50,893 bases of DNA from Bacteriovoracaceae bacterium (GCA_947446575.1 CANFHC010000023.1:1-50893), one strand, 5' to 3'. Counted from the first letter of the stretch, positions 29,969 through 48,690 are shown. Notes: generated by a model from the letters alone, not told the origin. Numbers and translations are program-made.

Positions 29969-29995
29969 TAAAGCTTTATAAACTGCGCCCGATAA
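29969..29995 (+). promoter_or_regulatory. Sigma-28 (FliA) promoter of motAB
   Basis: TAAAGCTT (29969-29976), an 11-base spacer, and CCCGATAA (29988-29995) differ from the E. coli FliA consensus TAAAGTTT-N11-GCCGATAA at one base in each box with the exact spacing. Transcription would start about base 30002, just before the GGAGG of motA. Confidence 0.7.
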
Positions 29996-30021
29996 GTAAG
30001 TAATCTTTGGAGGATTTTTTT

Positions 30022-30879
30022 ATGATGTCGATTGTCGGTGGCGTATTTGTTCTTGCCTGTGTTGTTATGGGATACCTACTTGAAGGTGGAAATATTGCAG
30101 CTTTGGTGCAGCCTCTTGAGTTACTCATCATCGGGGGTTCTGCCCTAGGGACGCTTATCATTTGCGGTAGTCCACATATGTTTAAAGAAATGGTTCAAAG
30201 ATTACTACAAATTTTAAAAGGAAGTGGAGTTAACAAAGCTTCTTATATCGAGCTTCTTCAATGTATGTTTGAACTTATCAAAATGGCATCTGCCAACCCA
30301 ATCTCAATTGAACCACACGTTGAAAATCCAGAAACTTCGGAAATTTTTAAAAGATACCCTGCCGTTTTACACAATCATCATGCTATTGATTTTATCTGCG
30401 ATACATTGAAAGTTCAGATTGCTTCTTCTTTATCTCCCTACGATCTAGAAGATTTAATGAATTCAGATTTAGATTCAGTTCACGAAGCAGAACATCACTT
30501 GGTTGCAACTATGAACAGAACCGGAGATGCGTTTCCGGGCCTAGGGATCGTTGCGGCGGTTCTTGGGGTTGTTATCACCATGGGAAAACTAGATCAGGGT
30601 AAAGAAGTCATTGGTCACTCGGTTGGTGCCGCCCTCGTAGGTACTCTTTTGGGGATCTTAATTGCATACGGATATATTCAGCCTCTGGTTGCTAAGATTG
30701 AAACGATCATGGGTGAAGAGGCAAAATTTGTTAATACTGCAAAAATATGTCTTCTCGCTTATGCTAAGGGAGTAAACGCAAAAGTTTGTGCTGAATTTGG
30801 TCGTCGTTCAATTCCGTTGGAATTTAGACCATCTTTTAAAGAAGTAGATGAAGCAACAGCTAATGCAGGTAAAAAATAA
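30022..30879 (+). CDS. motA: Flagellar motor stator protein MotA
   Basis: 285 residues from the ATG at 30022, with GGAGG eight bases upstream. Four membrane helices; the cytoplasmic loop carries RTGDAFPGLGIVAAVLGVV, the family's DxxPGLGIVAAVLGVV signature with the essential proline. Together with MotB it forms the proton channel that drives the flagellar motor. A near-consensus sigma-28 promoter lies upstream. Confidence 0.95.
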   Translation: MMSIVGGVFVLACVVMGYLLEGGNIAALVQPLELLIIGGSALGTLIICGSPHMFKEMVQRLLQILKGSGVNKASYIELLQCMFELIKMASANPISIEPHVENPETSEIFKRYPAVLHNHHAIDFICDTLKVQIASSLSPYDLEDLMNSDLDSVHEAEHHLVATMNRTGDAFPGLGIVAAVLGVVITMGKLDQGKEVIGHSVGAALVGTLLGILIAYGYIQPLVAKIETIMGEEAKFVNTAKICLLAYAKGVNAKVCAEFGRRSIPLEFRPSFKEVDEATANAGKK

Positions 30880-30910
30880 TTTTTTAGCAAAAATTTAGGA
30901 AGACCTCATC

Positions 30911-31675
30911 ATGGCAGATGAAAAAGCCCCCATAATCATCAAAAAAATTAACAAGGGACACGCCGGCGCTCACGGTGGTGCTTGGAAAGTTGCGTTCGCC
31001 GACTTCATGACTGCGATGATGTGCTTTTTCCTCGTTATGTGGCTAATGGGAGCGGATGAAGAAACGAAAAAAGCGATAGCCAATTATTTTACCACTGTCA
31101 CTATCTTCAAAGGCGGAAGTGATTCATTGGGAAAAACGGGAAATACTCCAAATTCCAATAACTCTATTTTAAATGGCGGAGAAGGACAATTCGAAGAAAA
31201 AGACGTCACAGAGCCGGCCAGACCAAAACCAGTTTATCTGCAAGAACACAAAGTTTTAAGCAAACTTGTCACAGAAATTTTTGACGGGAATTCTTTCAGC
31301 GAAGACTTTACCGCCGAATATTTAAAGTTTGCCATTCCAGGAAATATTTTATTTCAATTTGGTTCAACCGAAATTTCTTACGAAGGTAAAAAATATTTAG
31401 CAAAACTAGCCGATGTTTTTAAAAATTATGAAGGATCTGTCTCCATCATAGGTCACACTGAAAAAGGTGAAGGCGAAACAGATCAAGCCAATTGGGAGCT
31501 CGCATTTAAACGGGCCATGGCCATTAGAAATTCCCTCATCAAAGATTTTAGAGTAAGGCCTGATCAACTAGTTCCATCGGCCCAATCCAGCACTGTTACC
31601 TCCTCCGAAGAAGAAAATAAGGGGATAAATGTAAATAGACGCGTGGAATTTGTCCTCCGACATAGAAATCTTTAA
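30911..31675 (+). CDS. motB: Flagellar motor stator protein MotB
   Basis: 254 residues. A single N-terminal helix, AFADFMTAMMCFFLVMWLMG, carries the proton-binding Asp31. The C-terminal OmpA-like domain binds peptidoglycan: NILFQFGSTEI, then SIIGHTEKGEG and GINVNRRVEFVL. It anchors the stator to the wall. It follows motA by 31 bases with an AGGAAG site and is part of the same transcript. Confidence 0.95.
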   Translation: MADEKAPIIIKKINKGHAGAHGGAWKVAFADFMTAMMCFFLVMWLMGADEETKKAIANYFTTVTIFKGGSDSLGKTGNTPNSNNSILNGGEGQFEEKDVTEPARPKPVYLQEHKVLSKLVTEIFDGNSFSEDFTAEYLKFAIPGNILFQFGSTEISYEGKKYLAKLADVFKNYEGSVSIIGHTEKGEGETDQANWELAFKRAMAIRNSLIKDFRVRPDQLVPSAQSSTVTSSEEENKGINVNRRVEFVLRHRNL

Positions 31676-41652: not shown

Positions 41653-43020
41653 TTAGCCAATTTCTTTTGTTACAACTTGAATCAATCGATTACATTCTGA
41701 TTCAACCAGATCTGCATTTTCCCCTTCAACCATGACTCGTAGTAATGGTTCGGTGCCTGAATACCGTAAAAGGACTCTTCCCTTACCGTCCATTTTCTTT
41801 TCTGCCTCTTTAGTCGCATCGTCAATAGACTTTACGGTTTCTAAAACAGGTTTATTTTTTACTACGACATTTTTAATCACTTGCGGGAATAATTCAATTT
41901 CAGACACTAGGTCTTTTAGTGACATATTAAAATACTTCATTGCTTCAATTACTTTCAATCCCCCCAAAGAGCCGTCACCTGTTGTAGAGTGTTTGCTAAA
42001 AATAATGTGCCCTGAAGGCTCTCCACCTAATATGCAATTATGTGCACGCATATACTCAATGATATAACGATCACCTACTTTCGTGCGAACAAATTTTAAT
42101 CCAAGTTTTTTTATGTAGAGCTCTAGACCTAAGTTTGACATGACAGTCCCAACAACTGTATCACCTATTTTGAGTTCACCACGGGCGAGCAATAGTTTTG
42201 CAAATAAACCAATAAGCTTATCCCCATCAACTAAAGTTCCTTCTTGGTCAATTACACTTACTCTGTCGCCATCACCATCAATACAAATTCCAATATCAGC
42301 TCGGTATTTTAGCACTTCTGCACGAGCTGCCTCAGGGTGAAGTGAGCCACAATTTTTATTTATGTTTTCCCCATTGGGCGAAATACCAATAGAAAAAACT
42401 TCAGCACCTAATTCATGAAAAATCATAGGAGTTACTTTATAGCCAGCACCGTTGGCGCAATCTAAAACGATTCTCATTCCGTCTAAGTCGTAGTCACTAC
42501 CTAGAGCAGATTTTACTTGAACGATGTAGCGTCCATAAACTTCTTTAAGTCTTTCAGCGTTTCCCAATTGGCCAGCATACTTAACTGGCATGAGTTCAGG
42601 ATTTAAAATTAATTTTTCTAATTCCAATTCTATATGATCAGGAAGTTTATTGCCTTTACCATCAAATATTTTTATTCCGTTATCTTGAAAATGATTATGT
42701 GAAGCTGAAATCATAACTCCAGCATCTGCACGCATAGAGTGCGTGACAAACGCGACTCCTGGAGTTGGCAGAGGACCAGTTAAAATAACTTCCCCCCCTT
42801 GAGAGCATACCCCAGAGGCAAAGGCCATCTCTAGCATATAACAAGAAAGTCTAGTGTCTTTACCGACAATAATAATTGGTTTGGTATTGTTGGGATTAAT
42901 CGCTTGGAAGTGATATGTGACAGCTCGTCCGAGAGCAGTCGCAATTTCTGCGGTCATAGGATAAGCATTGGCCTTACCTCTAATACCATCCGTACCAAAT
43001 AATTTTCTTTCTGATGACAT
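41653..43020 (-). CDS. glmM: Phosphoglucosamine mutase
   Basis: 455 residues. FGTDGIRGKAN, then GVMISASHNHFQDNGIKIF with the phosphoserine at about Ser107, DGDGDR as metal-binding loop, GGEPSGHII, and RYSGTEPLLRVMVEG for the phosphate site: all four domains are intact. It converts glucosamine-6-P to glucosamine-1-P for UDP-GlcNAc, peptidoglycan and LPS. It lies after cdaA-cdaR. In Firmicutes GlmM binds and inhibits CdaA, which makes the arrangement functionally meaningful. Confidence 0.97.
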   Translation of the reverse strand: MSSERKLFGTDGIRGKANAYPMTAEIATALGRAVTYHFQAINPNNTKPIIIVGKDTRLSCYMLEMAFASGVCSQGGEVILTGPLPTPGVAFVTHSMRADAGVMISASHNHFQDNGIKIFDGKGNKLPDHIELELEKLILNPELMPVKYAGQLGNAERLKEVYGRYIVQVKSALGSDYDLDGMRIVLDCANGAGYKVTPMIFHELGAEVFSIGISPNGENINKNCGSLHPEAARAEVLKYRADIGICIDGDGDRVSVIDQEGTLVDGDKLIGLFAKLLLARGELKIGDTVVGTVMSNLGLELYIKKLGLKFVRTKVGDRYIIEYMRAHNCILGGEPSGHIIFSKHSTTGDGSLGGLKVIEAMKYFNMSLKDLVSEIELFPQVIKNVVVKNKPVLETVKSIDDATKEAEKKMDGKGRVLLRYSGTEPLLRVMVEGENADLVESECNRLIQVVTKEIG

Positions 43021-43054: not shown

Positions 43055-43732
43055 TTATTTCTGCAACTGGCGCTTAAAATTCAAAAGCTGAGTTTTATAT
43101 TTTAATTTTATTTTTGTAGAGTCTTCAACTTTTAATCTTGGGTCTAAATCAGAAAGCGAGAGATTCATAGCGCCTTCATCTTTATTGAATAAAGCAAGAT
43201 TAACAGGGGCCGTCTCAATACGCGAAACACTTTTTAAAATAACGACTGGCCCAGAAATCATTACATTTTGAGGTTCTACTACGACTTCTTTAATCTTTCT
43301 ATCTTTAGGAGCATCCCCGATGTATTGCACTTTAACAGGTAATTCCATTAAAACAACTCGATCGAGTTCTATGGCGGTCTCTTTCGGAGAAATGTCTAAC
43401 ACCTCTACACCAAAGGGAACAGTAACGTCGCTGACATAAAACTTAACTTTAAAACTTTTTCCCGAAGAAACAAAATACGGATTCAAATCAACATTCAATT
43501 TTTCTTTGTTGGTAAAAATATTTTGAATAAAAGCTTTCGAGCCTTTTATTTTAAGTGTGACTTCTTTTTCAGCAAGACTTGCCACCATATACCCTTTGGG
43601 AGTTATGTAATTGATTGAAAGTTTCTTTTCAATTTGTACCGGCTCACTGTTTAGGACATAGAACCACAACGACACTGCAAAAAAGATGGCGATAATTTTT
43701 AGTGAATGTCTTTGAGCTGTTTCTCTTTTCAT
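43055..43732 (-). CDS. cdaR: YbbR-domain regulator of c-di-AMP cyclase (CdaR)
   Basis: 225 residues. One N-terminal membrane helix (SLKIIAIFFAVSLWFYVL) is followed by two to three YbbR repeats on the outer face (LPVKVQYIGDAPKDRKIKEV, then VEPQNVMISGPVVILKSVSRIETAPV, as in the repeat consensus). It would sit in the membrane next to CdaA and modulate it. Gap to cdaA three bases. Shorter than Bacillus CdaR (about 480 residues), so it has fewer repeats. Confidence 0.88.
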   Translation of the reverse strand: MKRETAQRHSLKIIAIFFAVSLWFYVLNSEPVQIEKKLSINYITPKGYMVASLAEKEVTLKIKGSKAFIQNIFTNKEKLNVDLNPYFVSSGKSFKVKFYVSDVTVPFGVEVLDISPKETAIELDRVVLMELPVKVQYIGDAPKDRKIKEVVVEPQNVMISGPVVILKSVSRIETAPVNLALFNKDEGAMNLSLSDLDPRLKVEDSTKIKLKYKTQLLNFKRQLQK

Positions 43733-43735
43733 TTT

Positions 43736-44551
43736 TTATCGAATCATATCTTTAGTTTTAATAGGTCTTAAACTACCATCCAAACTTTCATTACTCCAAA
43801 TGTGTCGCAAATACTGTCCAAGCTCTTTTTCCGTTTTGCAAAGATAAAAAACCCCTTCAACACAAAGGTTAATTTTACCTGTTTCTTCAGAAACTGTAAC
43901 TACTAAAGCATCTGTCACTTCAGTTAGACCCAAGGCAGCTCTATGCCTAGTACCAAGATGTCGTTCAATATCAAAATTTTTTGATAAGGGTAAAAAACAT
44001 CCGGCCGCAGAGATTTTACCATTTTGAATAATGATGGCCCCATCATGTAATGAGGAGCTGGATTCAAAAATGGAATAAATAATATCGGAATGAATACGCG
44101 AGTCGAGCCTTGTTCCAGTATTCACAAAATTTAGTAAACCATGAGTTCGCTCTAAAACAATTAAGGCCCCAATTTTTTCTTTAGATAATGCACCAGTTGC
44201 TTCAACTATTTCATCTATTTCAAAATCGTATTCGTCTTTATCAAACAATGTGAGAAAATGTTTTTTGGTGCCGACTGAGGCCAATGCATTTCTAAATTGA
44301 TCTTGAAAAAGAACAACGACGATAATAAAGAATGAATCAAAAAAGTGAGCAAGAACCCAATTGAGAGAATAAAGTTTAAAAGTAATTCCTAGCCAAAAAA
44401 GGGCGAATAAAACACCTAGCCCCACAATCATCTGTGCTGCTTTTGTTCCACGAACGATTAATAGCAACTGATATATAAGGATCGTCACGATAAGAATATC
44501 GATTAGATCCTTAAAATTAAGATGCGCTAAAAATGTCGTTAAAAAAGTCAC
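43736..44551 (-). CDS. cdaA: Membrane diadenylate cyclase CdaA
   Basis: 271 residues. Three N-terminal membrane helices (IDILIVTILIYQLLLIV to about residue 85), a short linker, and the DAC domain with both catalytic motifs: SSLHDGAIIIQNGKI (DGA) and ERHLGTRHRAALG (RHR). VVTVSEETGKINL also fits. It makes c-di-AMP from two ATP at the inner membrane. Family and activity are well supported by the intact motifs. It starts 11 bases after the AAA+ regulator gene ends. Confidence 0.95.
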   Translation of the reverse strand: MTFLTTFLAHLNFKDLIDILIVTILIYQLLLIVRGTKAAQMIVGLGVLFALFWLGITFKLYSLNWVLAHFFDSFFIIVVVLFQDQFRNALASVGTKKHFLTLFDKDEYDFEIDEIVEATGALSKEKIGALIVLERTHGLLNFVNTGTRLDSRIHSDIIYSIFESSSSLHDGAIIIQNGKISAAGCFLPLSKNFDIERHLGTRHRAALGLTEVTDALVVTVSEETGKINLCVEGVFYLCKTEKELGQYLRHIWSNESLDGSLRPIKTKDMIR

Positions 44552-44562
44552 CCGAGTCTCTC

Positions 44563-46533
44563 CTAAGCAGCGTTAGCAAACTCGTCGTCCTCTTTTTGGA
44601 ATCTGATACGTTCATCTTCAGATAAATTAAGTGATTTTAAAATATCCGTACTCATCAGAAGTTTTTTTCTTAAGGCCTCACGACTGATTCCCATTTCTTT
44701 AGCAGCTTTGGATTTATTACCATTGCTTCTTCTGATTTCTGCATGAATCATTTCGCGCTCTATCAAGGCAAGTCTGTCTTTAAGAGCAATTGTATGATCA
44801 CTAACAAAAGGAAGATCTCCAAACATTCTCTTCTTTTCAGAGATGTCTACAATTGGAGAAGCTGAGTCCTGAATATCAATATCAGTGATAACGTGTGCCT
44901 TAGGATTATAGAGAACCGCTCGCTCGATAGAGAGTTTAAGTTCTTTAATATTTCCCGGCCAGTCGTATTTCTTTAATTTTTCCATTAGTTTTGGAGCAAA
45001 AGTTTTAAGCAATAAGCCTTGTTTTTTGCATTCGACTTTTAAAAAGTAATCAACTAAGAGTTCAAAGTCGTCACCTCTTCTGCGTAATGGTTCAATGAAA
45101 ACTGTGGCCTTCGCTAAGTATTCATAAAGCTCGCGATCAAACTGTCCGTTGGCAACTAAAACACCTAGGTCTCTAGTTGTTGAAGCGACTATGCGAACAT
45201 CCATACTAAACTTAGTATCCGGAATATGGCGATCTCTTAAAATGACCACTAACCTCTTTTGATTTTTTGGAGAGAGTGCCCAAATCTCATGCAGGTGAAT
45301 AGATCCTCCCTTGCAAGTAATGAGTTTACATTCTTTTTCATCTGGTCCAAAAAGAGCAATTTCAAGTTCTGTTTGATCCTTATCTTCACAGTGAATAATT
45401 TCGAAAGGTTTTAGGCCTCGTTGACCTTCCACATGAATAATTTTTGCATAAAGAGATTTACCAACACCTTTTTCCCCATAGATTAATACAGGTGCTTCAA
45501 TATCTTTTAATTTCATAATTGTGCTTCGAAGACTTGCTACGTGTGGAACTTTACCAATCAATGCATTTTTTCTATCGAATGGACCAGAAAATCTTCTGAT
45601 CGTTGACTTATCTGACATTGGAGTAAAGTTGTAAAAAACTGAAGAAAAGATGAGAGATAAAACTTTCATTGTTTTTTCATCTTCGATCGTAAAGCGGTCT
45701 TCGTTTCTTTTATTTAAAACTTCAATAACACCAATAATTTTATCTTCACGGTTATGAATCGGATGACAGATAATCGACTTAGTTTCAAATCCAAATTTTT
45801 TATCAAATCCTTCATTGAAACGAGTACTATCATGAACCGTATCGATATTGAGAGCTACTCCAGTTGTAAAAACTGAACCTGCAATTCCCATACGATAATC
45901 AAACTTTAATTGCTCTTTTCTTATTCCTAAAGCACAGACTGCTTCAAGTTCATTTGTTTCTGGATTAATTAAAAAAAGTGACGCTCTTTGAGCATTTAAA
46001 ATACGAATCACCTCTTCAAGCATAGATTCGATAAATCCTTCTTTATCTCCAAAATGTGTAATGTCTTTAAACAGAGATAATAAAAGTGAGAAGACCTCAA
46101 ATCCGTCGGTCGCCTTAGTGTATCGCTCTTTTATTGCAGAATCGATCAAACAGTCTTTTAGACGTTCTGATGAAAAACCCATAATATAGTGTTCAAGAAA
46201 TTTAGTGATGCTTTTTTCTTCTTCAACCTCAACTCCATAAATGATCTTTTGATCATCGAGAGTTTGAGAAAAAGCGCGTACGACTTTTCCCGTTAAATCC
46301 ATGTGATGCTTTTTATATTGTAATGAAATGGAAAGCTCTTGCCCAACTGAAATTCGCTCGGCTGTAGCAAAACCAAACCCGGTTAAACTTATATCAATAA
46401 GTTTAGCGTCAGTGATATATTCATTTGAGCCACGTGCACGTTCAATTTGAACCAGGAATCGCAAATCATCAGCTTCTTCTACAGGGATTCTGAATGACTG
46501 GTAAAATTTAAACTCTGAAAAACTGGCCAACAT
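44563..46533 (-). CDS. PilZ-GAF-AAA+-Fis regulator with a degenerate ATPase
   Basis: 656 residues. Residues about 5-115 look like PilZ (LIDISLTGFGF holds the DxSxxG half, but the RxxxR half is incomplete). 145-302 is a GAF domain. 325-560 is an AAA+ domain with Walker A GEKGVGKS (353-360), but the Walker B reads GGSIHLHEI (409-417), where GGTLFLDE is normal, so the catalytic Asp is His. The GAFTGA loop that touches sigma-54 is absent (LFGPDEKECKLITCKGG). 585-625 is a Fis-type helix-turn-helix (NKSKAAKEMGISREALRKKL). AAGGAG lies seven bases before the ATG. It is the first gene of the cdaA operon. Likely a DNA-binding sensor that does not drive sigma-54. Confidence 0.88.
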   Translation of the reverse strand: MLASFSEFKFYQSFRIPVEEADDLRFLVQIERARGSNEYITDAKLIDISLTGFGFATAERISVGQELSISLQYKKHHMDLTGKVVRAFSQTLDDQKIIYGVEVEEEKSITKFLEHYIMGFSSERLKDCLIDSAIKERYTKATDGFEVFSLLLSLFKDITHFGDKEGFIESMLEEVIRILNAQRASLFLINPETNELEAVCALGIRKEQLKFDYRMGIAGSVFTTGVALNIDTVHDSTRFNEGFDKKFGFETKSIICHPIHNREDKIIGVIEVLNKRNEDRFTIEDEKTMKVLSLIFSSVFYNFTPMSDKSTIRRFSGPFDRKNALIGKVPHVASLRSTIMKLKDIEAPVLIYGEKGVGKSLYAKIIHVEGQRGLKPFEIIHCEDKDQTELEIALFGPDEKECKLITCKGGSIHLHEIWALSPKNQKRLVVILRDRHIPDTKFSMDVRIVASTTRDLGVLVANGQFDRELYEYLAKATVFIEPLRRRGDDFELLVDYFLKVECKKQGLLLKTFAPKLMEKLKKYDWPGNIKELKLSIERAVLYNPKAHVITDIDIQDSASPIVDISEKKRMFGDLPFVSDHTIALKDRLALIEREMIHAEIRRSNGNKSKAAKEMGISREALRKKLLMSTDILKSLNLSEDERIRFQKEDDEFANAA

Positions 46534-46644
46534 AGGATGTCTCCTTACTAGAGATATTAATTCTCGTAAGACATATCGACTGTTTTAATCAAAAACTTGA
46601 ATATTGTGCCAACAATAATTTGCAATCTTTAAATTTAGAAGGTT

Positions 46645-47766
46645 TTAGTCGATTTCTAAAGGCTTAGTGCTTGATTCTCTTTCTGAAGTTTTCTGCTCTT
46701 CTACCTTTATAGGTGCTTCTTGATGATTGATTGGCTTCTCACTCAATTGCGCCGGCGGACTTTTTTCAGCAAGTTTTGGAGTGACTTTTTCAACTGGCTT
46801 TTCTTTTAAGTCGTGAGCAATTGCATTATGAATGGCCGACTTAAAAAGTTTCCAATATTGGGCAGACTTAGCTGGATCACTTGTTGGAAGCTCTAATGTG
46901 TAAGTGGGAATGTCTCGCTCCTTCCCTGCCCAGTTCCCAAGTGAACCTGGAAAGAAAGGATAGTTTTCAATTTTATAGTCAGAAGCATCTTTACTCATTT
47001 GAATCAAAAGTTCGTGAGCTTTAGCGCCATCAACAAAGCCATCAACAATAGTATTTGGCCCATCATAGTCCAGCATTGTTAGTGGCGAGTGCACAGAAAT
47101 AATTTTATCTGGTCCATATCTTTTTATTAGATTGATTTGAAATATAACTTCCGGCTCGCTACTGGCCGTGATTCCTGGGTTTCTTCGTTTATCTTTTCTA
47201 AAATGAGAAATCCACAATTTCCTAGCATCACGGGCCCAGTCTTTAGTAGGGAAATTGCGATTAACATCAACACCACGAGCATTCACTCGCGTAGGTCGCA
47301 CTTTAAAAAAAGAATCCGGATTTACAAGCGGAGCCACGATGACTATTTTGTTTGCGAAGTCTTTTTTCATGATTTCGGGATCTGCATAAACTGTCTTTAA
47401 ATACTTCATTATGTCAAAACAAAATTTAATGGGAGTGATTTCATCTCCGTGAACACCACACATAACGAAGGCCACATCTTTTTGCTTAAAGCTTGGCTTC
47501 TCTTCATCGCTTACATCGCCAAAAATGGTCCAAGTAAGTGGATCACCTAAAACAGAATTACGAACGTGAACCCAATCATATGTTTCACATTCACTTTTAT
47601 CCCATCCGTACTTTTTGAATCGATCATCTAATTTTTTACAAAATGAATTTAAAGCGGGAGTTAGCTTAGGGGAGCTCGTAGAGTTCACCTCAGAAGCTGT
47701 GACTTGAACAAATATAATATTGATGGCCCAAAGAAAGAAAGGTAATTTAATAGTGAGAGATTTCAT
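46645..47766 (-). CDS. Exported M14-family zinc carboxypeptidase-like protein
   Basis: 373 residues from the ATG at 47766. Signal peptide MKSLTIKLPFFLWAINIIFV. The zinc ligands are the His and Glu of GVHGDEITP and a later His in IISVHSPL; RPTRVNARGVDVNRNFP carries the substrate-binding Arg/Asn, and TYTLELPTS the catalytic Glu. It resembles the murein-peptide amidase MpaA group, which trims peptides. The C-terminal 50 residues are a Pro/Glu/Lys-rich tail. Periplasmic or secreted. It is divergent from the RimK-like gene with only 54 bases between starts. Confidence 0.85.
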   Translation of the reverse strand: MKSLTIKLPFFLWAINIIFVQVTASEVNSTSSPKLTPALNSFCKKLDDRFKKYGWDKSECETYDWVHVRNSVLGDPLTWTIFGDVSDEEKPSFKQKDVAFVMCGVHGDEITPIKFCFDIMKYLKTVYADPEIMKKDFANKIVIVAPLVNPDSFFKVRPTRVNARGVDVNRNFPTKDWARDARKLWISHFRKDKRRNPGITASSEPEVIFQINLIKRYGPDKIISVHSPLTMLDYDGPNTIVDGFVDGAKAHELLIQMSKDASDYKIENYPFFPGSLGNWAGKERDIPTYTLELPTSDPAKSAQYWKLFKSAIHNAIAHDLKEKPVEKVTPKLAEKSPPAQLSEKPINHQEAPIKVEEQKTSERESSTKPLEID

Positions 47767-47820
47767 ATGCACTATTATAGCTTTTAAAAAACTAAGATTT
47801 CAAGCAATAGGTACTTAAAG

Positions 47821-48690
47821 ATGGCACTTACATTCAATAAAACTATTTTGATCGCAAGTGAATCTCCCGACCTTTACACGACTAAAAGACTTTTATTAGA
47901 GGCTAAAAATCTAAAATTCAAAGCCCAATGGATGAATCCCTATGAATCTTTAATTCCCATTAATCAAAAACACTCCCCTATTAATTCATCCCAAGGTCTT
48001 TATTTTTTTAGAACTACCGGCATTCGTTACGATGAATTTGATATTCTTTTGGCCATCCATCACCAAAAATCCGGTTTTAAAATTACAAACCCGATAAGTG
48101 TCCTGGACACTTTTCGGAATAAAGATAAACAAATGCTTTTTTTTGAGCAAAACAAAATTCCGCTGATTGACACTATCGTCTATCGAGGCGTTCTCAATGA
48201 AAAGAATTGGGGGCAGATAAAAAAACTTTCTCCAAAAGGAAAATTCATCCTCAAAATGAACAGAGGTAATCAAGGCATTGGTGTTAACTTAATAGAAAGC
48301 CTGCCTTCACTTAAAAGTGTCCTGGAGACTTTTCATGCAATGAGGGATCAAAAGTTTTTAATTCAACCCTTTGTTGAACACAAAAAAGAATGGCGGGTGT
48401 TTGTTGTAAGACAAGAAATAATAGGAGTTATTGAACGCACAATCTCGGATTCTGATTTTCGCGGGAACTCTAATCGGTCATCTGGAAAATTGATAAAAAA
48501 AATATCAAAAGAAATACAAGAAGAAATTTTAAGAGCAGTTCAATTGAGTGGATTGGATTATTGTGGTGTAGATATAATGGAGACGAGTAAGGGATTTTTG
48601 TTTCTGGAAATTAATTCTGTGCCTGGATTTGAACAAATGGAAGAACTCACGGGCTTAAATATTGCCCGAGAGCTCATCACTAAATTATAG
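47821..48690 (+). CDS. RimK-like ATP-grasp ligase
   Basis: 289 residues, no signal peptide. The ATP-grasp fold is visible from FILKMNRGNQGIGVNLI (lysine of the glycine-rich loop), FLIQPFVEHKKEWRVFVV (adenine-binding edge), and LDYCGVDIMETSKGFLFLEIN, ending in NSVPGFEQMEELTG (metal-binding Glu/Asn). It resembles RimK, which adds glutamates to ribosomal protein S6. The acceptor here is unknown. Overlaps the convergent PLD-like gene by six bases. Confidence 0.87.
   Translation: MALTFNKTILIASESPDLYTTKRLLLEAKNLKFKAQWMNPYESLIPINQKHSPINSSQGLYFFRTTGIRYDEFDILLAIHHQKSGFKITNPISVLDTFRNKDKQMLFFEQNKIPLIDTIVYRGVLNEKNWGQIKKLSPKGKFILKMNRGNQGIGVNLIESLPSLKSVLETFHAMRDQKFLIQPFVEHKKEWRVFVVRQEIIGVIERTISDSDFRGNSNRSSGKLIKKISKEIQEEILRAVQLSGLDYCGVDIMETSKGFLFLEINSVPGFEQMEELTGLNIARELITKL

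Follow-up and report, generated by a model that had tools for sequence, protein, structure and literature searches.

A PilZ-GAF-pseudoAAA+-Fis regulator with a FliA-type promoter upstream of the c-di-AMP cyclase gene in Bacteriovoracaceae

In a 50,893-nt stretch of DNA from a Bacteriovoracaceae bacterium (GCA_947446575.1 CANFHC010000023.1:1-50893, hereafter the window), the minus strand encodes a 656-residue regulator, here given the working name REG, directly ahead of the gene for the cyclic di-AMP (c-di-AMP) synthase. Open reading frame (ORF) and domain searches placed REG at 44563–46533, with a ribosome-binding site (AAGGAGACATCC) at 46535–46546, and revealed PilZ (2.7e-8), GAF (5.2e-11), Sigma54_activat (4.1e-22), AAA lid (1.9e-15) and HTH_8 (2.8e-9) matches in Pfam, all exceeding the gathering scores. 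After a gap of 11 bases REG is followed on the same strand by cdaA, encoding a membrane diadenylate cyclase (43736–44551), then by ybbR (cdaR-like; 43055–43732) and glmM, encoding phosphoglucosamine mutase (41653–43020). The two genes after REG matched the DAC (1.7e-41) and YbbR (1.3e-8) families, respectively, and CdaA cleared the NCBIfam TIGR00159 cut-off (216.7 vs 188.8 bits) and carries the DGA and RHRAA motifs at residues 170 and 202. An earlier annotation made from the DNA alone (the sequence-only reading) had proposed both the four-domain order PilZ-GAF-AAA+-Fis helix-turn-helix (HTH) and the 11-base gap, and the domain search and ORF coordinates bore out both; its span of 43055–46533 does contain REG, but it also takes in cdaA and ybbR. 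The tight 11-base order is typical of the genus, not general across the family.

The AAA+ and lid region of REG (residues 325–554; 44872–45561, minus strand) has the fold of PspF, NtrX, FleQ and VpsR according to fold search, consistent with descent from the bacterial enhancer-binding proteins (bEBPs) that activate sigma-54 promoters. Its P-loop (GEKGVGK) is intact, and the P-loop Gly and Lys residues are invariant in all 66 REG orthologs compared. The parts needed for hydrolysis and for sigma-54 contact are largely gone: Walker B reads GGSIHLHEI, with His in place of the Asp that is lost in 60 of the 66 orthologs and remains in 6; GAFTGA is absent from loop L1 in every ortholog; both arginine fingers are missing (FDRELYEY, where other regulators encoded in this genome read FREDLYYR) and their columns never hold Arg; and the sensor II Arg, retained in seven orthologs, is Lys in REG. 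Other regulators of this genome whose motifs were recovered retain GAFTGA or GSFTGA, and three retain FREDL. We considered a sequencing error as the source of the motif loss and dropped it, as the same losses are conserved across the orthologs. In contrast to the motor, the Fis-type HTH (residues 588–625; 44659–44772) is intact, with the recognition-helix contact residues examined (R618, R622, K623 and K624) invariant in all 66. The loss of the Walker B Asp and GAFTGA claimed by the sequence-only reading thus extends to the arginine fingers. REG combines a bEBP-type AAA+ fold, P-loop and Fis-type HTH with the loss of GAFTGA, Walker B Asp and arginine fingers, and by sequence it is a pseudo-enhancer-binding protein (pseudo-bEBP). 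Since the P-loop is kept while the hydrolysis and GAFTGA motifs are lost, the pattern predicts nucleotide binding without ATP hydrolysis and without sigma-54 contact. There is precedent for such a protein: Rhodobacter capsulatus NtrC and VpsR, both lacking GAFTGA, regulate sigma-70 promoters, and the NtrC protein requires the binding but not the hydrolysis of ATP (PMC10274813).

The N-terminal PilZ domain (residues 1–118; 46180–46533) found no match when searched alone by sequence against solved structures; its fold was settled by structure prediction (predicted local distance difference test score 84) and fold search, which matched PilZ structures at Z 10–11. Alignment to VCA0042 (REG residue 7 onto 132) puts Y11 and R15 at the place of the RxxxR motif of the latter. 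R15 and the DxSxxG residues D47, S49 and G52 are invariant across orthologs, whereas the first RxxxR position is Tyr, Phe or Leu, never Arg, in all 65 orthologs having that column. Among the six PilZ matches of the same genome, four show RxxxR upstream, all of them proteins other than REG. Because the first Arg is replaced, and because a substitution at this position of PlzA (R145D) abolishes cyclic di-GMP (c-di-GMP) binding (PMC8323883), canonical c-di-GMP binding by the REG PilZ domain is unlikely, and the c-di-GMP-type PilZ input proposed by the sequence-only reading is not upheld. We consider the domain probably a structural or protein-contact module. The GAF domain (residues 167–293; 45655–46035) carries the stretch NKRNEDRFTIEDE, which fits the NKxnFxxxDE signature of cyclic-nucleotide GAF domains, with N274, F281 and D285 present in all 66 orthologs and K275 in 65, and its nearest solved relatives are CyaB, PDE2A and other phosphodiesterase GAF domains. 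The signature also occurs in GAF domains without a known cyclic nucleotide. On these features the GAF domain is a likelier sensor than PilZ.

Upstream of REG lies a promoter of the sigma-28 (FliA) type, TCAAGTTT-N12-GTCGATAT (46573–46600, minus strand; TCAAGTTT at 46593–46600 and GTCGATAT at 46573–46580), which conforms to the TAAAGTTT-N11-GCCGATAA type of the FliA regulon and predicts FliA-dependent expression. In Bdellovibrio notation it reads TCAAG-N16-TCGATA, resembling the FliA motif TTAAG-N16-CCGATA that marks 92 of 140 Bdellovibrio attack-phase promoters (PMC3627812). FliA is encoded in the genome, and flagellin genes with located starts show similar sites. Across orthologs, 46 of 64 REG promoters reached a FliA score of at least 12 of 16, compared with 72 of 1280 shuffled sequences. 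A score of at least 13 was reached by only 14 of 186 genes with free upstream DNA at 21 loci, namely nine REG genes, three cdaA genes, motA and one M14 gene. This motA lies in the window (30007); together with the next, OmpA-type motB-like gene (29969–31675, plus strand) it has a FliA-type promoter, TAAAGCTT-N11-CCCGATAA, and served as a positive control. After the shuffle, gene and motA controls, we dropped chance as an explanation of the FliA signal. At the 38 loci at which cdaA does not follow REG closely, being separated or spaced, its upstream scores also exceeded those of other genes, with background counts taken from the 186-gene set (Mann-Whitney p ~1e-9, uncorrected for relatedness), and the sites typically lie 55–77 bp before the start. 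Cross-genome conservation carries the FliA case: when two mismatches to the loose Bdellovibrio consensus are allowed, the number of matches in the window (22 against 15.5 expected) is not significant alone; a scan of the genome for near-perfect sites gave one match, the criterion being too strict.

Six base pairs upstream of the -35 element we found an 18-bp palindrome, TGCAA-N8-TGGCA (TGCAAATTATTGTTGGCA; 46607–46624, minus strand), as a candidate operator. Neither it nor the FliA-type promoters had appeared in the feature list of the sequence-only reading. The family consensus is TGCCA-N8-TGGCA, six to nine bases upstream of -35, and 52 of 64 REG promoters scored at least 8 of 10, a level that 6% of shuffles reached; in 50 of those 52 the half-sites are exactly 8 bp apart. 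Among the matches listed, palindromes without mismatch occurred in the genomes of the genus at REG promoters only, and TGCCA-N7..9-TGGCA matches across eight genomes showed, by eye, no preference for the 8-bp spacing. In size and symmetry the palindrome resembles the operators of NtrC-type Fis HTH dimers. It lacks the GG/GC -24/-12 pattern, and on that judgement we dropped the idea of a sigma-54 site. Where the genome has cdaA, 45 of 46 promoters retain the palindrome, as opposed to 5 of 18 where cdaA is lacking; in independent pairs, about three of four supported comparisons pointed in the same direction, which is not significant.

To survey the distribution, we searched 129 Bacteriovoracaceae genomes and 240 other genomes of the phylum with a profile built from 29 orthologs. 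REG was present in 114 of the 129, a few copies being partial at contig ends, and its named relatives are Bacteriovorax and Bacteriovoracaceae; among the matches listed for the 240 others there was no full-length REG, only AAA+-HTH matches. A diadenylate cyclase (DAC) gene occurs in 94 of the 114 REG genomes, in 91 of them on the contig and strand of REG: 54 tightly spaced (DAC domain at most 560 nt from where the REG match ends), a further 35 within 6 kb, and two at 13 and 22 kb. The sequence-only reading had made its case depend on the domain order being conserved with cdaA, and conserved it is, within 6 kb on one strand in 89 of the 94 genomes with both. In several genera a UPF0047 gene on the opposite strand is inserted between REG and cdaA, and in two genomes (G025 and G033) REG is located away from cdaA. 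In other Bdellovibrionota, by comparison, a long same-strand gene precedes cdaA in most of 13 loci (FtsH and FolP in the examples tested), and as a rule there is no FliA-type site ahead of it, one of the 13 loci scoring 13. On the tree, the presence of DAC has to change six times, with four or more of the changes on supported branches. Judged by its distribution and gene order, REG is a family-specific gene set before an old cdaA-ybbR-glmM cluster and not bound to cdaA alone. In several lineages (loci L038, L039, L040 and L041) cdaA and ybbR are missing between REG and glmM, with no DAC found genome-wide, which looks like a natural loss of c-di-AMP synthesis within the family. Two loci of one genus (L157 and L158, in G019 and G136) have neither REG nor cdaA beside glmM; full-length REG was not found in these genomes, nor was a DAC match in G019.

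Taken together, we tentatively propose, with doubt slightly outweighing belief, that REG is a FliA-driven, ligand-gated pseudo-bEBP that autoregulates through the palindrome and gates cdaA-ybbR-glmM where the genes are contiguous. REG would be a one-component transcription factor of NtrC-family descent whose Fis-type HTH binds DNA under the control of a ligand, with the GAF domain as the gate; the P-loop may bind nucleotide, while neither ATP hydrolysis nor sigma-54 contact is expected. The FliA promoter would make REG in the motile or attack phase. Transcription is predicted to start near 46566, and REG probably binds the palindrome, centred ~49 bp upstream of this start, and would thereby control its own transcription and, in contiguous genera, how much sigma-28 transcription runs on into cdaA-ybbR-glmM. 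At separated cdaA genes with their own promoter, FliA alone would tie cdaA to motility.

Several points weigh against this proposal. FliA promoters seldom need an upstream activator, and promoter scores from related genomes are not independent. The palindrome was not found in front of the separated cdaA genes (38 loci), leaving direct control of cdaA unsupported there, and among the matches listed, limited to palindrome-like sites, no REG regulon emerged beyond its own promoter. In genomes without cdaA the palindrome is weaker although the HTH is unchanged, which simple autoregulation does not predict. Twenty genomes hold REG without any DAC gene, and in 18 of them REG precedes glmM on the same strand, directly so where cdaA and ybbR are lost; cdaA therefore cannot be the only purpose of REG. 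Thus, of the c-di-AMP purpose assigned by the sequence-only reading, the common adjacency stands while the dedication to c-di-AMP is weakened. Finally, FliA use, the binding of REG to the palindrome, its ligand and the sign of regulation are all predicted from sequence. Much of this would also fit an attack-phase regulator with targets elsewhere, its place before cdaA-ybbR-glmM being an inherited FliA unit and another factor binding the palindrome. We consider this doubtful, if worth taking seriously: REG persists without cdaA or apart from it, and separated cdaA genes have the FliA-type promoter but not the palindrome, yet the palindrome stands in register beside the FliA promoter of a Fis-type regulator's own gene and, among the matches listed, is nearly unique in the genome, and the search for other target sites, restricted to palindrome-like ones, found none.

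As for the input, it is possible but unlikely that the GAF domain or the pseudo-AAA+ domain senses a cyclic nucleotide, perhaps c-di-AMP itself, with feedback at the FliA-promoter palindrome, so that the attack phase would set the supply of c-di-AMP and wall precursors. A PilZ domain that binds c-di-GMP, switches REG and links c-di-GMP to c-di-AMP and cell-wall supply is a quite unlikely reading, possible but not favoured; the PilZ fold is certain, R15, D47, S49 and G52 are kept, and c-di-GMP governs predation versus axenic growth in Bdellovibrio (PMC3271064), but the missing first Arg, the PlzA mutant and the RxxxR motif of other PilZ proteins in the genome speak against it. The sequence-only reading of a retooled regulator holds for the disabled AAA+ domain, the intact DNA-binding domain and the place beside cdaA, but not for c-di-GMP as input. 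The retained AAA+ fold and P-loop with lost hydrolysis parts would also suit an assembly partner whose pseudo-AAA+ ring inserts into a true sigma-54 activator and poisons or tunes it. This is very unlikely, as the HTH is conserved as much as the P-loop, which argues that DNA binding is under selection, and AAA+ surface residues, for example in L1, are free to vary. The reading of REG as a normal sigma-54 activator whose motifs are unusual is nearly excluded: REG passes the Pfam Sigma54_activat cut-off but reaches no NCBIfam sigma-54 activator cut-off, and the motif losses described above contradict it.

Among characterized regulators, VpsR of Vibrio and FleQ of Pseudomonas, NtrC-family AAA+-HTH proteins tied to cyclic-dinucleotide signalling, match REG in sequence and fold, and VpsR, which regulates sigma-70 promoters, likewise lacks GAFTGA. 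REG differs from both in having PilZ-GAF in place of a receiver-like N-terminus, in lacking both arginine fingers and, in most orthologs, the Walker B Asp, and in sitting behind a FliA-type promoter. NtrC and NtrX of Rhodobacter and Caulobacter have the L1 loop with GAFTGA deleted, as in REG, and NtrC works at sigma-70 promoters. NtrX comes first among the matches of REG in both NCBIfam and the fold search, yet at 152.8 bits against an NtrX cut-off of 600. NtrC and NtrX are two-component response regulators, whereas REG has no receiver domain. MrkH of Klebsiella, a PilZ transcription regulator among the best PilZ fold matches, binds c-di-GMP and has neither AAA+ nor Fis HTH, while REG lacks RxxxR. 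NifA/NorR-type regulators share the GAF-AAA+-Fis order, and NifA matches REG over GAF and AAA+; they are active sigma-54 ATPases, whereas REG adds an N-terminal PilZ domain and has lost the motor. The available part of the Bdellovibrio FliA regulon account names neither cdaA nor a PilZ-bEBP (PMC3627812).

GAFTGA-less bEBPs, PilZ transcription factors and FliA as the Bdellovibrio attack-phase factor are each already known, and among the results listed in our literature search none described the PilZ-GAF-pseudoAAA+-Fis combination or placed cdaA in a FliA regulon. The predicted placing of c-di-AMP synthesis under a flagellar or attack-phase promoter across the family appears new. Control of c-di-AMP synthesis in Gram-negative bacteria is largely open, and in this mostly predatory family cdaA seems to have left an ftsH- or folP-type neighbourhood, the kind found in other Bdellovibrionota sampled, for a flagellar/attack-phase type promoter and a new pseudo-bEBP, suggesting that c-di-AMP signalling belongs to the stage in which the cells swim freely and hunt, and making a link between hunting, c-di-AMP and wall-precursor supply directly testable. 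As far as motifs tell, the Bacteriovoracaceae also offer a family-wide natural experiment with bEBPs deprived of their motor, nucleotide and DNA binding being kept.

Elsewhere, four genomes of the genus carry a second, divergent DAC-domain ORF of ~404–429 residues (G001:C18:55984-56334, G002:C124:64740-65087, G005:C17:15494-15844 and G013:C178:3935-4285). Pairs of neighbouring, divergent REG-like proteins were seen at G023:C3:482649-486128 and G015:C1:1453511-1456854, with 30–32% identity over PilZ, GAF and AAA+. In the window, an M14 carboxypeptidase gene (46645–47772, minus strand) adjoins REG, as it does in many genera, and a divergent ATP-grasp (RimK-like) gene (47821–48690, plus strand) likewise stays beside REG in many of them.

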